Of a stretch of 64,000 bases of DNA, positions 6,324 through 64,000 are shown piece by piece. Both the position numbers and the translations under genes were made by a program. The notes below the pieces were generated by a model, which worked only from the letters and a program-made list of their open reading frames with translations, ran no database searches and was not told the DNA's origin. The first letter of the stretch is position 1, and the number at the start of each line of letters is the position of its first letter. The DNA is from Verrucomicrobiota bacterium (GTDB lineage: Bacteria > Verrucomicrobiota > Verrucomicrobiia > CAIQCK01), in NCBI GenBank assembly GCA_016222825.1, contig JACRQF010000006.1:1-64000 (forward strand). The letters run 5' to 3'.

Positions 6324-6953
6324 ATGAAACATTCGATGACCGCCCGCGCCCTCTGTTGTCTCACCTTAACCGCATGTCTGCTCGCAGCCTTGCCAACAAT
6401 GGCTGCCCAGATGTGGAAACCCCTGATGGACGGCAAGACGCTCGCCGGCTGGCATCCTGTCGGCGACGGCAAGTGGACCGTCGAGGACGGCGCGTTCGTC
6501 GGCCGCGCCAAAAAGGAGAAGCTTTACGGCTTGTTGGTGAGCGACAGGCAGTTCAAGAACTTCACCGTGCGGTTCAAGTTCAAGAGCCAGACCGGCGACA
6601 GCGGCTTTTACATCCGCACGATCATCAAGGAGCCGGAGAAGGCGCACGGCCTGCAAGTCCAGGTCGGTCCGCCCAACACCGGCAGCGGTGGCATCTACGA
6701 GAGCTACGGCCGCAAGTGGATTCCCGCAAAGCCGGCTGCCGACTTCGAGAAGACGTATCTCAAGCCCGACGATTGGAACGAGATGATTATCACCGCCAAC
6801 GGCGGCCACGTCGTCGTGAAGGTCAACGGCATCACCGTTACCGAACTCAAGGACGATCCCGGCCGCCCCGAAGGCCACTTCGCCCTCCAGATGCACTCCG
6901 GCTGCGAGATGGAAGTGCGGTTCAAGGACATCGAAATCCAGGAAGCGCCGTAG
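6324..6953 (+). CDS. Exported DUF1080 (3-keto-disaccharide hydrolase-like) protein
   Basis: A 209-residue protein with a signal peptide (cut near LPTMAAQ) and a single concanavalin-like sandwich. Family landmarks are LMDGKTLAGWHPVGDGKWTV at the start, the DSGFYIRTI strand, NTGSGGIYESYGRKW, the DDWNEMIITANGGHVVVKVNG strand pair and the closing HFALQMHSGCEMEVRFKDIE. DUF1080 proteins are abundant in Verrucomicrobiota and Planctomycetota; some hydrolyse 3-keto-glycosides, others may just bind glycans. The start has a strong AAAGGAG ribosome site. It ends 5 bases before the convergent GH2 gene. Confidence 0.88.
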   Translation: MKHSMTARALCCLTLTACLLAALPTMAAQMWKPLMDGKTLAGWHPVGDGKWTVEDGAFVGRAKKEKLYGLLVSDRQFKNFTVRFKFKSQTGDSGFYIRTIIKEPEKAHGLQVQVGPPNTGSGGIYESYGRKWIPAKPAADFEKTYLKPDDWNEMIITANGGHVVVKVNGITVTELKDDPGRPEGHFALQMHSGCEMEVRFKDIEIQEAP

Positions 6954-51910: not shown

Positions 51911-54900
51911 TTATTGCCCGAACACACCGGAGTCGTCCTTGTCGGCGAAGCAACGCAGCCTCGGGTAGCTTTCGCCTTCCTTGATTTGCCAGACGCTTTG
52001 AAAATCCCAGTCAACAAAAGTCGCCCGCTGTTTCATCTCGAACGACGTTCTGCCTTCGCCGTTGCCGCGGGAGTCCTGCTGGCCCGTGGTTTCGGTGTCC
52101 CAATACGAATCGGTGACGGTGGCTTTGTCAAACCCCACCAGGCCGCCGACCAATCTGTTGCCCGTCACCTTGCCGGAAGCGTGGCATCGGGCAATGTCGT
52201 CCTCGTTGCATCCCACCAAACCGCCGACATGCCCGTTGCCCAACACCTCCCCGGAGGCTTGAGAATCAGCGATGTCGCCTCTGGACAGACCCGCCAACCC
52301 GCCTGCAAATCGGTCATGGCCCAGCACCCTGCCGCGGGCCTGGCATTCCGTGATACTGCCGTCGTTGCATCCCACCAAACCGCCGACGGCATGTTTGCCC
52401 GACACTTCGCCGGAGGCCTGGCATTGGGTGATGCTGCCGGAGTTTGACCCAGCCAGACCGCCGACGAATTTTTCGGCGCCCGAGACCTCGTTGGAAGCCC
52501 GGCACTCCCTGATGCTGCCAAGGTTCAACCCCACCAAGCCACCCACGGATCTTTCGTTGCCCGACACTTCGCCGGAGGTTCCGCAACCAGAGATGCTGCC
52601 TCTGGATGCTCCCGACAGGCTGCCGACGAACTTGTTGCCCGATACTTTTGCGTCCACCAGCGTCAGGTTGCGAACCTTCCCCGATCTGCCCAGAACCCTC
52701 AAGAGACCGACGTCGTCTTCCCAACCGCGATTGATATGGAGATTGCGGATAGCGTGGCCGCCGCCGTCGAGAACGCCCGCAAAAGGTTCGGACACTGAAC
52801 CGATGGGCGCAAAACCTTTGCCTCCGTCCCAATTCTTCGTTTCCGAGGCGTCAATGTCCGCCACCAGACAATAGTGCCCGCGCAAGTCGGTATTGATCGC
52901 CTGGAGATCCGCCAAGGTGGCGATCTCGATCACCCCCCGCAGCCGCAACACCCGGGTTTCGTAGTCCTTGCTCCGGCCGGGTCCTTGGCTCCGCGTTACG
53001 CCACACTTCAAGCACTTCGTGCCCTCCTCGGACCAGTCGTGGCCTTGATCCCGCGTCACACCACACTTCGAGCACCTCTCGCAGTTCTTGCTCCAATCGT
53101 GCCCTTCATCCCGGGTCTTCCTGCACACAGTGCATTGACAGCCGCTCCATCGGTGCGCCGCTTGTCGTTCCAATCCGCAGCGCAAGCACTTCTCGCAGTC
53201 CTCTAACCAGTCGTGACCTTTCTCTCGTGCTGCACCACACTTGGAACACTTCTCGCAGTCCTTGCTCCAGTCGTGGCCTTCGTCGTGCGTCTTGCCGCAG
53301 ACGGAGCATTCGCAACCGCTCCAGCGGTGCGCATTCTCTCGTTCGGAGCCGCAGCGTGAGCATCGCTCGCAGTCCTTGCCCCAATCATGCGCGCCTTCCC
53401 TTATTGCGTCGCATTTCGAGCATTTCTCACAGTCCCGGCTCCAATCGTGACCTTTGTCTCGTGCTGCACCACACTTGGAACACTTCTCGCAGTCCTTGCT
53501 CCAATCGTGGCCTTCGTCGTGCGTCTTGCCGCAGACAGAGCATTCGCAGCCGCTCCAACGGTGCGCATTCTCTCGTTCGGAGCCGCAGCGTGAGCAACGC
53601 TCGCAGTCCTTGCCCCAATTATGCGCGTCTTCCCTTATTGCGCCGCATTTCGAGCATTTCTCACAGTCCCGGCTCCAATCGTGACCTTTGTCGTGCGTCT
53701 TACCGCAGACAGAACATTCGCAGCCGATCCACTGGTGCGCCGCTTGCCGTTCGGAGCCGCAACGCGAGCATCGCTCGCAATCCTTGCTCCAATCGTGCGC
53801 GTGATCTCGTGTTGCGTCACACTTCGAGCACTTCTCACAGTCCCGGCTCCAGTCGTGACCTTTCTCTCGTGCTGCACCACACTTGGAACACTTCTCGCAG
53901 TCCTTGCTCCAATCGTGGCCTTCGTCGTGCGTTTTGCCGCAGACGGCGCACTGGCAACCGCTCCACTGGTGCGCAGACTGGCGTTCCAACCCACACTTTG
54001 AGCAACGCTCGCAATCTTTGTTCCAGTCGTGCGCGTCTTCCCTTGTTGCGCCGCACTTGGAGCATTTTTGACAGTCCTTGTTCCAGTCGTGGCCTTCATC
54101 GCGGGTCTTGCGACAGACAGAGCATTGGCAGCCGCTCCACTGGTGCGCCGGCTGTCGTTCGGACCCGCAGCGTGAGCAACGCTCGCAATCTTTGCTCCAG
54201 TCGTGGGCGTCTTGCCTTGTTGTGCCGCACTTGGAGCATTTCTCACAGTCCTTGCTCCAGTCGTGGCCTTCGTCGCGCGCCTTGCCGCATCGGGCGCATT
54301 GGCAACCGCTCCACTGGTGCGCCGCTTGCTGTTCGGCCCCGCAGCGTGAGCAACGCTCACAGTCCTTGCTCCAGTCGTGGGCGTCTTGCCTTGTTGTGCC
54401 GCACTTGGAGCATTTCTCGCAGTCCTTGCTCCAGTCGTGGCCTTCGTCGCGGGTCTTGCGACAAGCAGAGCATTGGCAACCGCTCCATCGGTGCGCAGAC
54501 TGGCGTTCCAACCCACACTTTGAGCAACGCCCGCAATCTTTGCTCCAATCATGCGCGTGATCTCGCGTCGCGCCACACTTCGAGCACTTCTCACAGTCCT
54601 TGCTCCAGTCGTGGCCTTCGTCGCGCGTCTTGCGACAGGCAGAGCATTGGCAGCCGCTCCATCGGTGCGCAGACTGCCGTTCGGACCCGCACCGTGGGCA
54701 TTGCTCGCAATCCTTGCTCCAATCATGCGCGTCTTCCCTTGTTGCGCCGCACTTGGAGCATTTCTCACAGTCCTTGCTCCAGTCGTGGCCTTCGTCGCGC
54801 GCCTTGCCGCAGACGGCGCACTGGCAACCGCTCCACAGGTGCTCAGCCTGTCGTTCAAATCCGCACCGCGAACATCGCTGGCAGTCCTTGCTCCAATCGT

Positions 54901-55390
54901 GCGCGCGATCTCGTGTTGCGCCGCACTTCGAGCACTTCTCGCAGTCCTTGATCCAGTCGTGCCCCTCTTCGCGCGTCACACCGCATGTCGCGCACTTGTT
55001 GCAGTCTTTGGACCAGTCGTGCCCTTCACTCCGGGTCCCACCACAAGTTGAGCATTTCTGACAGTCCCGACTCCAGTCATGTCCCTCTTCGCGGGTCTTG
55101 CCGCACACGGAGCATTGGCAGCCGCTCCATTGGTGCGCCGCCTTTCGTTCAAGCCCGCAGCGCGAACACTTCTCGCAGTCCTGGCTCCAGTCGTGTTCTT
55201 GATTCCGCCTTTGGCTGCATTTCTGGCATTTGCAGCCGCGCCACTCGTGGCTGACTCGTCGAGTGGTTCCGCAAATGGAGCATCTAGTGCAATCGGCACT
55301 CCAATCGTGTTGTTCGTCGCGAACCTTCCCGCATTTGACGCAACCGCAACCTTCCCAAGTATGTATGCCCAAGGCGCAGCCGATGCTCAT
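51911..55390 (-). CDS. Giant Cys/His/Trp-repeat protein with C-terminal GLUG repeats
   Basis: An 1159-residue protein. Residues 10-803 are 41 uninterrupted small modules of two kinds. Type A (20 residues, 28 copies) reads HDWSKDCEKCSKCGATRE plus two; type B (18 residues, 13 copies) reads HRWSGCQCSACRKTRDEG. Most are arranged A-A-B, a 58-residue (174-bp) super-repeat. Nearly every module keeps His, Trp and three Cys, as in small zinc-ribbon units. Residues 804-1159 contain a strand-rich domain and about six GLUG repeats (VGGLVGLNLGSIRECRASN, VTDSYWDTETTGQ). No signal peptide is seen at MSIGCALGIHTWEG. GGAG precedes the start. Function unknown; metal binding and surface or scaffold roles are inferred only. 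Confidence 0.85.
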   Translation of the reverse strand: MSIGCALGIHTWEGCGCVKCGKVRDEQHDWSADCTRCSICGTTRRVSHEWRGCKCQKCSQRRNQEHDWSQDCEKCSRCGLERKAAHQWSGCQCSVCGKTREEGHDWSRDCQKCSTCGGTRSEGHDWSKDCNKCATCGVTREEGHDWIKDCEKCSKCGATRDRAHDWSKDCQRCSRCGFERQAEHLWSGCQCAVCGKARDEGHDWSKDCEKCSKCGATREDAHDWSKDCEQCPRCGSERQSAHRWSGCQCSACRKTRDEGHDWSKDCEKCSKCGATRDHAHDWSKDCGRCSKCGLERQSAHRWSGCQCSACRKTRDEGHDWSKDCEKCSKCGTTRQDAHDWSKDCERCSRCGAEQQAAHQWSGCQCARCGKARDEGHDWSKDCEKCSKCGTTRQDAHDWSKDCERCSRCGSERQPAHQWSGCQCSVCRKTRDEGHDWNKDCQKCSKCGATREDAHDWNKDCERCSKCGLERQSAHQWSGCQCAVCGKTHDEGHDWSKDCEKCSKCGAAREKGHDWSRDCEKCSKCDATRDHAHDWSKDCERCSRCGSERQAAHQWIGCECSVCGKTHDKGHDWSRDCEKCSKCGAIREDAHNWGKDCERCSRCGSERENAHRWSGCECSVCGKTHDEGHDWSKDCEKCSKCGAARDKGHDWSRDCEKCSKCDAIREGAHDWGKDCERCSRCGSERENAHRWSGCECSVCGKTHDEGHDWSKDCEKCSKCGAAREKGHDWLEDCEKCLRCGLERQAAHRWSGCQCTVCRKTRDEGHDWSKNCERCSKCGVTRDQGHDWSEEGTKCLKCGVTRSQGPGRSKDYETRVLRLRGVIEIATLADLQAINTDLRGHYCLVADIDASETKNWDGGKGFAPIGSVSEPFAGVLDGGGHAIRNLHINRGWEDDVGLLRVLGRSGKVRNLTLVDAKVSGNKFVGSLSGASRGSISGCGTSGEVSGNERSVGGLVGLNLGSIRECRASNEVSGAEKFVGGLAGSNSGSITQCQASGEVSGKHAVGGLVGCNDGSITECQARGRVLGHDRFAGGLAGLSRGDIADSQASGEVLGNGHVGGLVGCNEDDIARCHASGKVTGNRLVGGLVGFDKATVTDSYWDTETTGQQDSRGNGEGRTSFEMKQRATFVDWDFQSVWQIKEGESYPRLRCFADKDDSGVFGQ
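52982..55363. repeat. Coding tandem repeat array (60/54-bp modules, 174-bp super-repeat)
   Basis: The DNA behind residues 10-803 of the Cys-repeat protein. Many adjacent 174-bp blocks are almost identical at the base level (for example around 53230-53460 and 53460-53690), which indicates recent expansion by recombination or slippage. Length may vary between strains. Confidence 0.9.
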
Positions 55391-55509
55391 GGTTCTTCTC
55401 CGACTTCTTCTTCTTGTTGTTTACTTGGTCAAACAAATCACCTGCTTCGTCTGCCATGCTCTTCGTTTTCACGCAGCCACTGGTGCGCATCCTACGCCGA
55501 TGCGTTGGC

Positions 55510-61928: not shown

Positions 61929-62690
61929 ATGCCAATAAGCCCGAAAGACGAATACGAGAAGCTCATTCGATGGGCGGACAAATACATCCGTCATCCGAAC
62001 ACTTCTCCGGGCAGCGCTGTTGCGCGATGGCGTAACAAATCGGTTCTGTGGCTTCGGAAGCACACCCCCGATTCAAGATTGGCCGAAGAGTTTCTTACAA
62101 TTCCAGCGCCCAACCATGAAGGACGCGGGCTTAGTCATGGAAACGTGAAGAACATCCAGCGGGCACTTCGCGTCTTCCTACGTGCGCGCGACCTTCTTCC
62201 GTTTTTAGCTGCCGATAGGCAGGCTCGGATACCTCGTCCGGAGAACGCAAAAAAGGTATTTGTTGTTCACGGCCACAACGACGCATTGAAGACAGCCGCC
62301 GCACGGCTACTTACAAAGCTACAACTTGAACCAATCATTCTGCATGAGCAGCCAAACAAGAGCAGAACGATTATCGAGAAGTTCCTCGATTACAGCGATG
62401 TTGCGTTCGCGTTGGTGCTTCTAACGGCGGATGATTGGGGTGGACTCGTTAACGGGCCGCCTGAAAGCTACAATCGTCGCGCACGACAAAACGTAATTTT
62501 AGAGTTGGGCTTCTTCATTGGCCGCCTTGGTCGCGAGCGAGTCGTTGCGATCTACGAAGCGGGAGTTGAAATTCCTTCTGATTATAGTGGAGTTCTATTC
62601 ATTCCTTTCGATTCCGGCGGTATTTGGCAATACCAAGCCGCTAAGGAGATGAAGGCAGCCGGAATTAAGATAGATATGAGCCACATTTGA
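61929..62690 (+). CDS. TIR-like nucleotide-binding protein (PF10137 type)
   Basis: A 253-residue protein. Residues 1-100 are a helical region without a known motif. Residues 107-250 are a TIR-like fold: AKKVFVVHGHNDALKTAAAR, EPIILHEQPNKSRTIIEKF, DVAFALVLLTADDWGG and QNVILELGFFIGRLGRERVV, where Glu192 is the likely NAD-hydrolysis residue. Such domains act as NADase effectors in several anti-phage systems (CBASS, Pycsar and others). No cyclase or other sensor is adjacent, so an incomplete or self-contained system is possible. GC content is clearly lower than in the neighbouring genes, which suggests transfer. Confidence 0.85.
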   Translation: MPISPKDEYEKLIRWADKYIRHPNTSPGSAVARWRNKSVLWLRKHTPDSRLAEEFLTIPAPNHEGRGLSHGNVKNIQRALRVFLRARDLLPFLAADRQARIPRPENAKKVFVVHGHNDALKTAAARLLTKLQLEPIILHEQPNKSRTIIEKFLDYSDVAFALVLLTADDWGGLVNGPPESYNRRARQNVILELGFFIGRLGRERVVAIYEAGVEIPSDYSGVLFIPFDSGGIWQYQAAKEMKAAGIKIDMSHI

Positions 62691-62766: not shown

Positions 62767-63087
62767 TCACTTCGCATCGAGCCGGTCGAGCCGTAGCAGG
62801 ACGGCGCCGAAGTCGAGGGCGCGCTGGCCGGGGACGAGGTAGCAGGCGGGGATGCTGTAGCAGTTGCCGTAGCCACGCCGCAGGAGGCCGAACGCCACGA
62901 GGAGGGCGAGGTGTTTGGAGATGTTGGAGCGTGGGACACCGATGCGCTTGGCCAGTTCGCTGGCCGGGAGTGGCTCACCCTTGAGCAGTTCGTCGAACAT
63001 GCGCCAGCGTGTCATGTCGGAAGCGGCCCGGATGGCGATTTTCAATGGGATGACAGGCATCTGTGAGGCTGTGGTGGGTGTGTTCAT
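62767..63087 (-). CDS. ArsR-type winged-helix regulator
   Basis: A 106-residue DNA-binding protein: ASDMTRWRMFDELLKGEPLP, ASELAKRIGVPRSNISKHLA, the helix-turn-helix, and LLVAFGLLRRGYGNCYSIPA, the wing. No Cys pair of the usual ArsR metal site is seen; the Cys in the wing-side part could bind a ligand. It is upstream-flanked by 21-bp tandem repeats (63141-63392) that could be its regulatory region. It converges on the TIR gene. Confidence 0.85.
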   Translation of the reverse strand: MNTPTTASQMPVIPLKIAIRAASDMTRWRMFDELLKGEPLPASELAKRIGVPRSNISKHLALLVAFGLLRRGYGNCYSIPACYLVPGQRALDFGAVLLRLDRLDAK

Positions 63088-63140
63088 GGGATTTGGTCTG
63101 GTTTTCTGATGGTTTTAGCAAGTTCTCAGGCGATTGACAA

Positions 63141-63392
63141 GGGTCATCGGGGAATAGAGGTTCTTCATCGGTGACTGTAGCTTAACCATGAGTGATTGTA
63201 GCATATTCATCGGTAACTATACATTCTTTGCAGGTGAATAGAGTTTCTTAGTCTGGGAATAGAGTATATCCATCGGTTGCTGGAGTTTCGTAATCGGTGA
63301 GTAGAGTATAGTCGTCGGTGAACAGAGTTTCTTCGTCAGGAATTGGAGATTGTCTTCCGGGAGTCTGAGTTTCGGGCTCGGTGGGGTGAGGA
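63141..63392. repeat. Twelve 21-bp tandem repeats upstream of the ArsR-type gene
   Basis: Twelve diverged copies without gaps; consensus is about TCTTCATCGGTGAATAGAGT plus one base. The period is exactly 21. Read on the minus strand, several units give LYSPxxK-like heptapeptides (LYSPITK, LYSQTKK, LYSPAKN), but no convincing start covers them. It lies 54 bases before the ArsR-type start (63087). The remainder of the gap 63088-63730 holds only this array and the kdgK remnant below. Confidence 0.85.
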
Positions 63393-63613
63393 CGTCGCTC
63401 TGCCGTGTGACATCCGCCTTCAGTGAAGCGCGCTCTTTGTTGCGGGAGTGGACGACGTGAGTTTCCTGGCTGGGATCCGATCGCGCGGTGCCGCGAAGGC
63501 CGAACGCCTCTGCTCCATTCATGATGCGTGTCATCGGCGCGGCGGTGGCGGCGCGAAATGACGTTGCCGGGAGACGGGGGGGCTTGCTAGGTTGGCGGCA
63601 TGATGAAGAGATG

Positions 63614-63706
63614 GTTCTCGCGCTGGCGATGAAGGCCGGGGTGGAGACGCTCATGAAAGGCGGCGGCGCGCGCGCAGCGGTGATCGGCGGTTGTGGATGG
63701 CCTTGA
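63614..63706 (+). pseudogene. Damaged copy of the kdgK 3' end
   Basis: Bases 63620-63632 and 63633-63674 match the end of kdgK (61786-61798 and 61829-61870) with a 30-base internal deletion; over the last 42 bases 38 are identical. The translated remnant reads ALAMKAGVETLMKGGGARA against kdgK's AEVEKLMKGGGARV. It flanks, with kdgK itself, the segment that holds the TIR and ArsR-type genes. Confidence 0.75.
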
Positions 63707-63730
63707 CGTTGGTGAACCAGGATTAGGACT

Positions 63731-64000
63731 ATGAAACTGTCAGCATTGCGAAAGAAGCTCAATTTCTTCGGCGACTCCTCCGAGTGGAAGGACGGGATCA
63801 CGCCATCCATCGGCGGCGGTGACGCCAAGATGCTCATCCGGCTGCTGAACAAGGTCAAACGCGAGAACATGGCGGCCCTCGAAGTCGGGAGTTGGGTGGG
63901 CAACGGCAGCACGCGCGTCATCACGAACCACATCCGGGACCTCCACGCCGTTTTCTACTGCGTGGACACCTGGGCGGGCAGCGAGAACGTCCCGTTCCAC
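63731..64000 (+). CDS. Class I SAM methyltransferase, N-terminal part (continues beyond window)
   Basis: Ninety codons run to the edge of the window. After KKLNFFGDSSEWKDGITPSI the SAM motif I is NMAALEVGSWVGNGSTRV, followed by a strand with FYCVDTWAGSENV, as in Methyltransf_24-type enzymes often found with glycosyltransferases in polysaccharide loci. The substrate cannot be judged from this part. It starts 25 bases after the kdgK remnant. Confidence 0.8.
   Translation, partial: MKLSALRKKLNFFGDSSEWKDGITPSIGGGDAKMLIRLLNKVKRENMAALEVGSWVGNGSTRVITNHIRDLHAVFYCVDTWAGSENVPFH

Follow-up and report, generated by a model that had tools for sequence, protein, structure and literature searches.

The window, a stretch of 64,000 nucleotides from a Verrucomicrobiota contig, contains an intact open reading frame of 1159 codons that lies on the minus strand and spans 51911-55390 exactly; in that frame the plus strand of this interval contains stops. 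The strand is a detail missing from an earlier note on this DNA, whose counts (41 modules, 28 of type A and 13 of type B, gapless over residues 10-803) were confirmed by recount. The features are as follows.

51911..55390, minus strand: whole gene, 1159 aa, with ATG at 55390..55388 and stop at 51913..51911; an orthologue occurs in the same-genus genome G001.
55398..55401, minus strand: GGAG, Shine-Dalgarno-like on reading the sequence, 7 nt 5' of the ATG.
55376..55378, minus strand: codon of Cys5, the N-terminal cap cysteine and proposed donor to the first site; a leading Cys is common in relatives.
52982..55363, minus strand: array of 41 modules, residues 10-803, delimited by the A/B module patterns.
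52982..53041, minus strand: last module, residues 784-803, HDWSEEGTKCLKCG, the C-terminal cap, which lacks the first Cys; G001 shows the same loss, as do 33 of 67 terminal modules.
51914..52909, minus strand: GLUG domain and C-terminal tail, residues 828-1159, a predicted right-handed beta-helix (Pfam PF07581, AF2).

All 41 modules start with H-x-W, and they succeed one another without gaps from residue 10 to residue 803. The type A module is a 20-residue unit, H-x-W-x3-C-x2-C-x2-C-G..., and the type B module an 18-residue unit, H-x-W-x-G-C-x-C-x2-C-G...; their order runs BABABAAAABAABAAB.... The A-A-B super-repeat of 58 residues described earlier holds for most of the array, and its 174-bp period is found by TRF. 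Residues 1-803 contain 123 Cys, 47 His and 41 Trp, so that the cysteine content, first put at about 120, is exactly 3 x 41. The His, the Trp and the three Cys are invariant in 27 of 27 A and 13 of 13 B modules compared, while the ligand codons differ synonymously (TGC/TGT, CAC/CAT) from module to module. Conservation of the array exceeds chance.

GLUG repeats do follow the array, as had been noticed: PF07581 matches five stretches with an E value of 3.7e-21 and a score of 74.5 bits, above the Pfam cut-off of 20.5. The AF2 model of residues 704-1159 contains a beta-helix with pLDDT >90 across about 200 residues, and its best match in the PDB is 3n6z (BACOVA_03286), with IgA1 proteases next. The window protein has the GLUG repeat and the predicted fold in common with these proteins but differs in having no M26 catalytic part and no signal peptide, and in joining its GLUG domain to an array of metal modules. 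Identity as an M26 IgA1 protease was ruled out, since HExxH is not found in the window protein and the M26_N match falls under the Pfam cut-off.

GLUG domains are found in surface proteins. It is conceivable that the modules are disulphide-bonded repeats of a secreted adhesin which leaves the cell by an unrecognized export route and displays GLUG outside. An adhesin role has been proposed for GLUG proteins of Methanimicrococcus blatticola (PMC9723798). Invariant His and Trp residues are unlike a disulphide pattern, however, and neither a signal peptide nor a strong hydrophobic stretch is seen in the window protein; we regard such an adhesin as very unlikely. Because the relatives of the module family that were read also lack signal peptides, the GLUG domain of the window protein is most likely cytoplasmic, and the extracellular role implied by its GLUG repeats is left unsupported.

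The orthologue in G001 is about 1337 aa long, counted from the matching start, and contains 50-51 modules followed by GLUG. Its N-terminus (MSIGC) and GLUG end are as in the window protein, and its last module, HQWSGGKCSVCG, also lacks the first Cys. Comparison of the two genes gives a dN/dS of about 0.19 (0.175/0.90, approximately) for the GLUG part and about 0.11 (0.19/1.65) for the first 85 residues, where dS is near saturation. The window gene is under purifying selection, and the conservation at the protein level that the earlier note had made a condition of its proposal is thus present in a relative. In sequence, modules mostly resemble others of the same gene most closely: the nearest neighbor lies in the same gene for 21 of 25 and 24 of 26 A modules and for 10 of 10 and 16 of 17 B modules. 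Since the A/B order also differs between the two proteins, the array must have been homogenized and resized in each lineage by concerted evolution, and the expectation of a fast-evolving array, with 41 versus 50-51 modules, is borne out. G003, a third species, carries a short form split by another domain; no version of the gene was found in a fourth (G002). In the G001 orthologue (L021) a module-length stretch at about 6650-6720, GRTTPTPPWPTRWLTAHSGS, lacks the module pattern and breaks an otherwise regular array. The reading frame remains open through it, and it may represent a module that was shifted out of frame and back again.

A scan of GTDB genomes yielded 53 loci with a module array. 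Carriers include Verrucomicrobia, Armatimonadota, Bacteroidota, Clostridia and other Firmicutes, Actinobacteria, Chloroflexi, Desulfamplus and other Proteobacteria, Omnitrophota, Planctomycetes and the archaeon Methanimicrococcus, a sparse spread over about ten phyla and one archaeon. The module is rare within each group (6/388, 3/147, 5/151, 11/391 and 3/396 genomes, counts that include the genomes serving as search centers). It has no model in Pfam, NCBIfam or PHROGs, gave no profile match to the known zinc ribbon families of Pfam and NCBIfam, had no match in plasmids or phages at E 1e-3, and its array is absent from viral contigs. Sequence searches of the PDB returned LIM, TiaS and ribosomal protein matches, all non-significant, and no description of the module was found in open-licence papers. 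The module is therefore a widespread family that is undescribed in the open-licence literature and absent from the domain databases searched. The statement that no described system has this combination holds for the module with GLUG but not for the module alone, which belongs to that family.

In the relatives the array lies mostly at the very N-terminus, typically comprises 2-9 modules and is not preceded by a signal peptide. The C-terminal partners are varied and include ankyrin repeats (in 7 of 51), HEAT, Lcl_C, DUF6273, FGE-sulfatase, Fib_succ_major and GLUG. The window's own genome also encodes a Sel1 protein with modules, in which a hydrophobic, membrane-helix-like stretch lies ahead of them. 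Two Verrucomicrobia proteins, L148 of G003 (residues 118-227) and L107, share a domain, xGTIRFVLLV..HP..PS..QM.AFLMDILPEF.., that lies inside or after the array and has no Pfam match. The C-termini of L086, L119 and L133 have a conserved C-x4-H-x-W-...-CxxC end (CKKGDHLWKVS...YTCVLCGK), which amounts to an extra stand-alone C-H-C-C site C-terminal to the arrays.

The distribution of cysteines at the ends of arrays suggests how the modules may be connected. In the notation used here, H, Ca, Cb and Cc are the His and the first, second and third Cys of a module. Among about 70 relatives, Ca is present in 331 internal modules and absent from 1, whereas in terminal modules the figures are 34 and 33 (Fisher P 2e-28); with a looser parser the figures become 343/3 and 30/36. 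In each of the 32 arrays where exactly one module lacks Ca, that module is the last, against 7.2 arrays expected, an outcome with a probability of about 1e-22 under random placement. At the other end, 58 of 61 first arrays have a Cys within the 8 residues that precede the first His. Since the first count used the very proteins that had prompted the cap hypothesis, a held-out set provides a cleaner, though small, test: Ca is present/absent in 25/1 internal and 6/7 terminal modules, the single Ca-less module is last in 6 of 6 cases, and 11 of 13 arrays have the leading Cys.

Internal exceptions are few. The sole one in the main set, in L110, has a linker Cys directly before the next His, a feature found in 8 of the 331 other links; in the held-out locus L289 an internal module lacks Ca and no donor is visible. 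Of 30 doubly capped arrays, 24 contain exactly 3n Cys and the remaining 6 have one extra. Two arrays split by an inserted domain agree with the cap rule. In L028 Ca is missing at the end of the first part and the restart brings a Cys of its own, whereas in L148 Ca is kept at the end of the first part and the restart has no such Cys. About half of the parsed terminal modules retain Ca, in a count by a parser that demands His and CxxC and so underestimates losses of those. Many of the Ca-retaining modules precede a further long-loop site that the parser overlooked, but some, in L144, L142, L056 and L061, look like genuine ends.

Given a surplus ligand at the start of an array and a deficit of one at its end, as would be seen in repeats that share ligands, a single register provides four ligands at every site: His, Cb and Cc of module i would be joined by Ca of module i-1, so that each site has three Cys and one His. 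This register uses every array Cys of the window protein, as 1 + 40 x 3 + 2 = 123; it would group C5 with H10, C17 and C20, and C15 with H28, C37 and C40. The N-cap Cys stands 4-5 residues before its own His and the internal donor about 13 before, and the geometry of the first site must therefore differ.

The module can be compared with DUF1660 (PF07874), a family of small proteins from phages and prophages. The pattern C-x4-H-x-W...CxxC is found in 54 of 57 of them, and 45 of those 54 have no other Cys ahead of CxxC; the proteins were retrieved with the pattern CKLFGHKW, which inflates the resemblance, but the CxxC lies outside that pattern. Their N-terminal motif is a minimal C-H-C-C site like that of the first module, and the ligand set C-x(3-5)-H-x-W...CxxC is likewise present in the module family. 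Profile comparison aligned DUF1660 with first modules at 97.5% probability (E 4.9e-12), placing Ca in the variable loop of DUF1660; with the whole N-terminal alignment only the knuckle was aligned. One relative matches DUF1660 at E 0.0023, the window protein has no Pfam match to it even at E 10, and DUF1660 was not found in 19 close genomes. Unlike the window protein, DUF1660 proteins have a single site, mostly lack Ca, and have neither array nor fused domains. To judge from these motifs, they look like a single-site version of the module.

It is possible that each module is self-contained, its His, Ca and CxxC sharing one zinc in the manner of beads on a string, with the caps reflecting incidental degeneration. 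The four ligands do fall within 11-13 residues and are co-conserved, and duplication proceeds by whole module units. This explanation seems unlikely, though not negligibly so: it leaves unaccounted for the Cys that is conserved ahead of the first His, the fact that arrays lose Ca specifically at their ends, and the lack of Ca in most single-site DUF1660 proteins.

An interlocked array would account for these points. Each 18-20 residue module would give its His and CxxC knuckle to one zinc, and the fourth ligand would be Ca of the preceding module, locking neighbors together through the metal into a continuous chain. The extra N-terminal Cys would fill the first site, and the last module may drop its Ca because no module comes after it. 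The 123 Cys and 41 module His of the window protein would thus form 41 sites, and the protein would be among the longest examples, with 41 interlocked ions. That this is an undescribed prokaryotic repeat fold, in which each zinc site borrows a Cys from the previous module, seems to us an evenly poised proposition. What is new here is the module family and, we infer, its interlocking register.

Known folds offer partial parallels. CxxCG knuckles are typical of zinc ribbons, and the modules have them in common with these and with the double zinc ribbon (DZR, PF12773); the window protein has no match to DZR, and the best among relatives, E 0.03, is under the cut-off. Cross-brace zinc folds, for example RING and LIM, share with the arrangement proposed here an alternation of successive ligands between metal sites, but each of their domains has two sites rather than an open-ended chain. 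LIM appeared in sequence and fold searches only as non-significant matches. An AF2 model of seven modules, based on 36 aligned rows, has a pLDDT of 91.9 and a pTM of 0.62; in the second run (10 rows, residues 704-1159) the array part has a pLDDT of about 50. Foldseek found no match to the array model at E 0.001 in the PDB or the viral library.

Our preferred reading of the whole protein, to which we assign a probability of roughly 0.55, is a cytoplasmic, zinc-laced, interlocked rod that presents a GLUG beta-helix as a recognition domain. The location and the metal are suggested by the conserved Cys/His ligands and the missing signal peptide, and the metal scaffold proposed in the earlier note fits in part: the ligand pattern points to a metal that is probably zinc, and the confident model of seven modules to an elongated scaffold, with metal binding a prediction. 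The rod may serve as an adjustable stalk whose length shifts by unequal crossing-over, and the C-terminal domain would do the binding, through GLUG here and through ankyrin, HEAT or lectin-like domains in relatives. Given the company of domains, stalk, adaptor or scaffold is probably the best single description.

Other roles for the array appear less satisfactory. Its very high ligand content (123 Cys and 47 His per 803 residues) might suggest a metallothionein-like store or buffer, a sink for about 41 ions. This is improbable, since most relatives have 2-9 modules, many joined to interaction domains, no metal-homeostasis genes were recognized adjoining the window gene, and the invariant Trp and near-fixed spacing indicate a fold. 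A decidedly improbable alternative is that CxxCxxC and His hold iron-sulphur clusters, the rod conducting electrons or sensing redox state. The type A motif is partly as in ferredoxins, and redox sensitivity had been suggested from the sequence, but the Ca-Cb distance of 2, 3 or 4 (type B has CxCxxC and some relatives Cx3CxxC) is loose for a cluster, the knuckles are those of zinc ribbons, and no redox partner recurs among the neighbors of related loci; nothing in the tests run points to redox sensitivity. Binding of DNA or RNA is common among long arrays of zinc fingers, but the net charge of about +5 over 803 residues and the want of any significant match to known nucleic-acid-binding fingers make that function extremely unlikely.

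If the interlocked rod is correct, a metal-stapled solenoid would join the known designs of repeat proteins, with a simple cap rule that serves arrays of any length. The family would then probably be intracellular in many phyla, one N-terminal rod carrying varied binding domains, and finding the partners of these proteins could uncover a common adaptor or sensing system.

Gene order was considered as a clue to function and set aside. In three same-genus genomes the recN and DPD-like neighbors of the window gene are placed on different contigs, and the G001 orthologue has other surroundings, which makes the neighbors uninformative; the window gene has no fixed genomic place. No constant partner was found near 51 related loci, at a few of which genes for protein kinases, LRR and HEAT-like proteins recur. 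Ser/Thr protein kinase genes lie near module genes in different phyla (L061, L089), LRR genes lie near those of L051, L061 and L070, and TDQ-type HEAT-like repeats occur within the module protein itself in L060, L065, L066 and L079.

A link to defense was likewise rejected: a TIR gene lies 6.5 kb off, yet the window protein has no PADLOC match. That gene, at 61929-62690 on the plus strand in a lower-GC stretch, encodes a TIR protein of the CAP12/Pycsar effector type (PF10137, E 5e-35; PADLOC PDC-S35, E 7.6e-67) and is itself a candidate anti-phage defense gene. Beyond it, a low-GC tract at 63120-63340 carries degenerate repeats, each about 21 bp long (gaatagagttt...). It is overlain by a minus-strand open reading frame (63217-63933) that matches nothing in Pfam or PADLOC and could be spurious. 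A small minus-strand open reading frame (62767-63087), situated between the repeats and the TIR gene, by eye resembles an ArsR-type winged-helix regulator.
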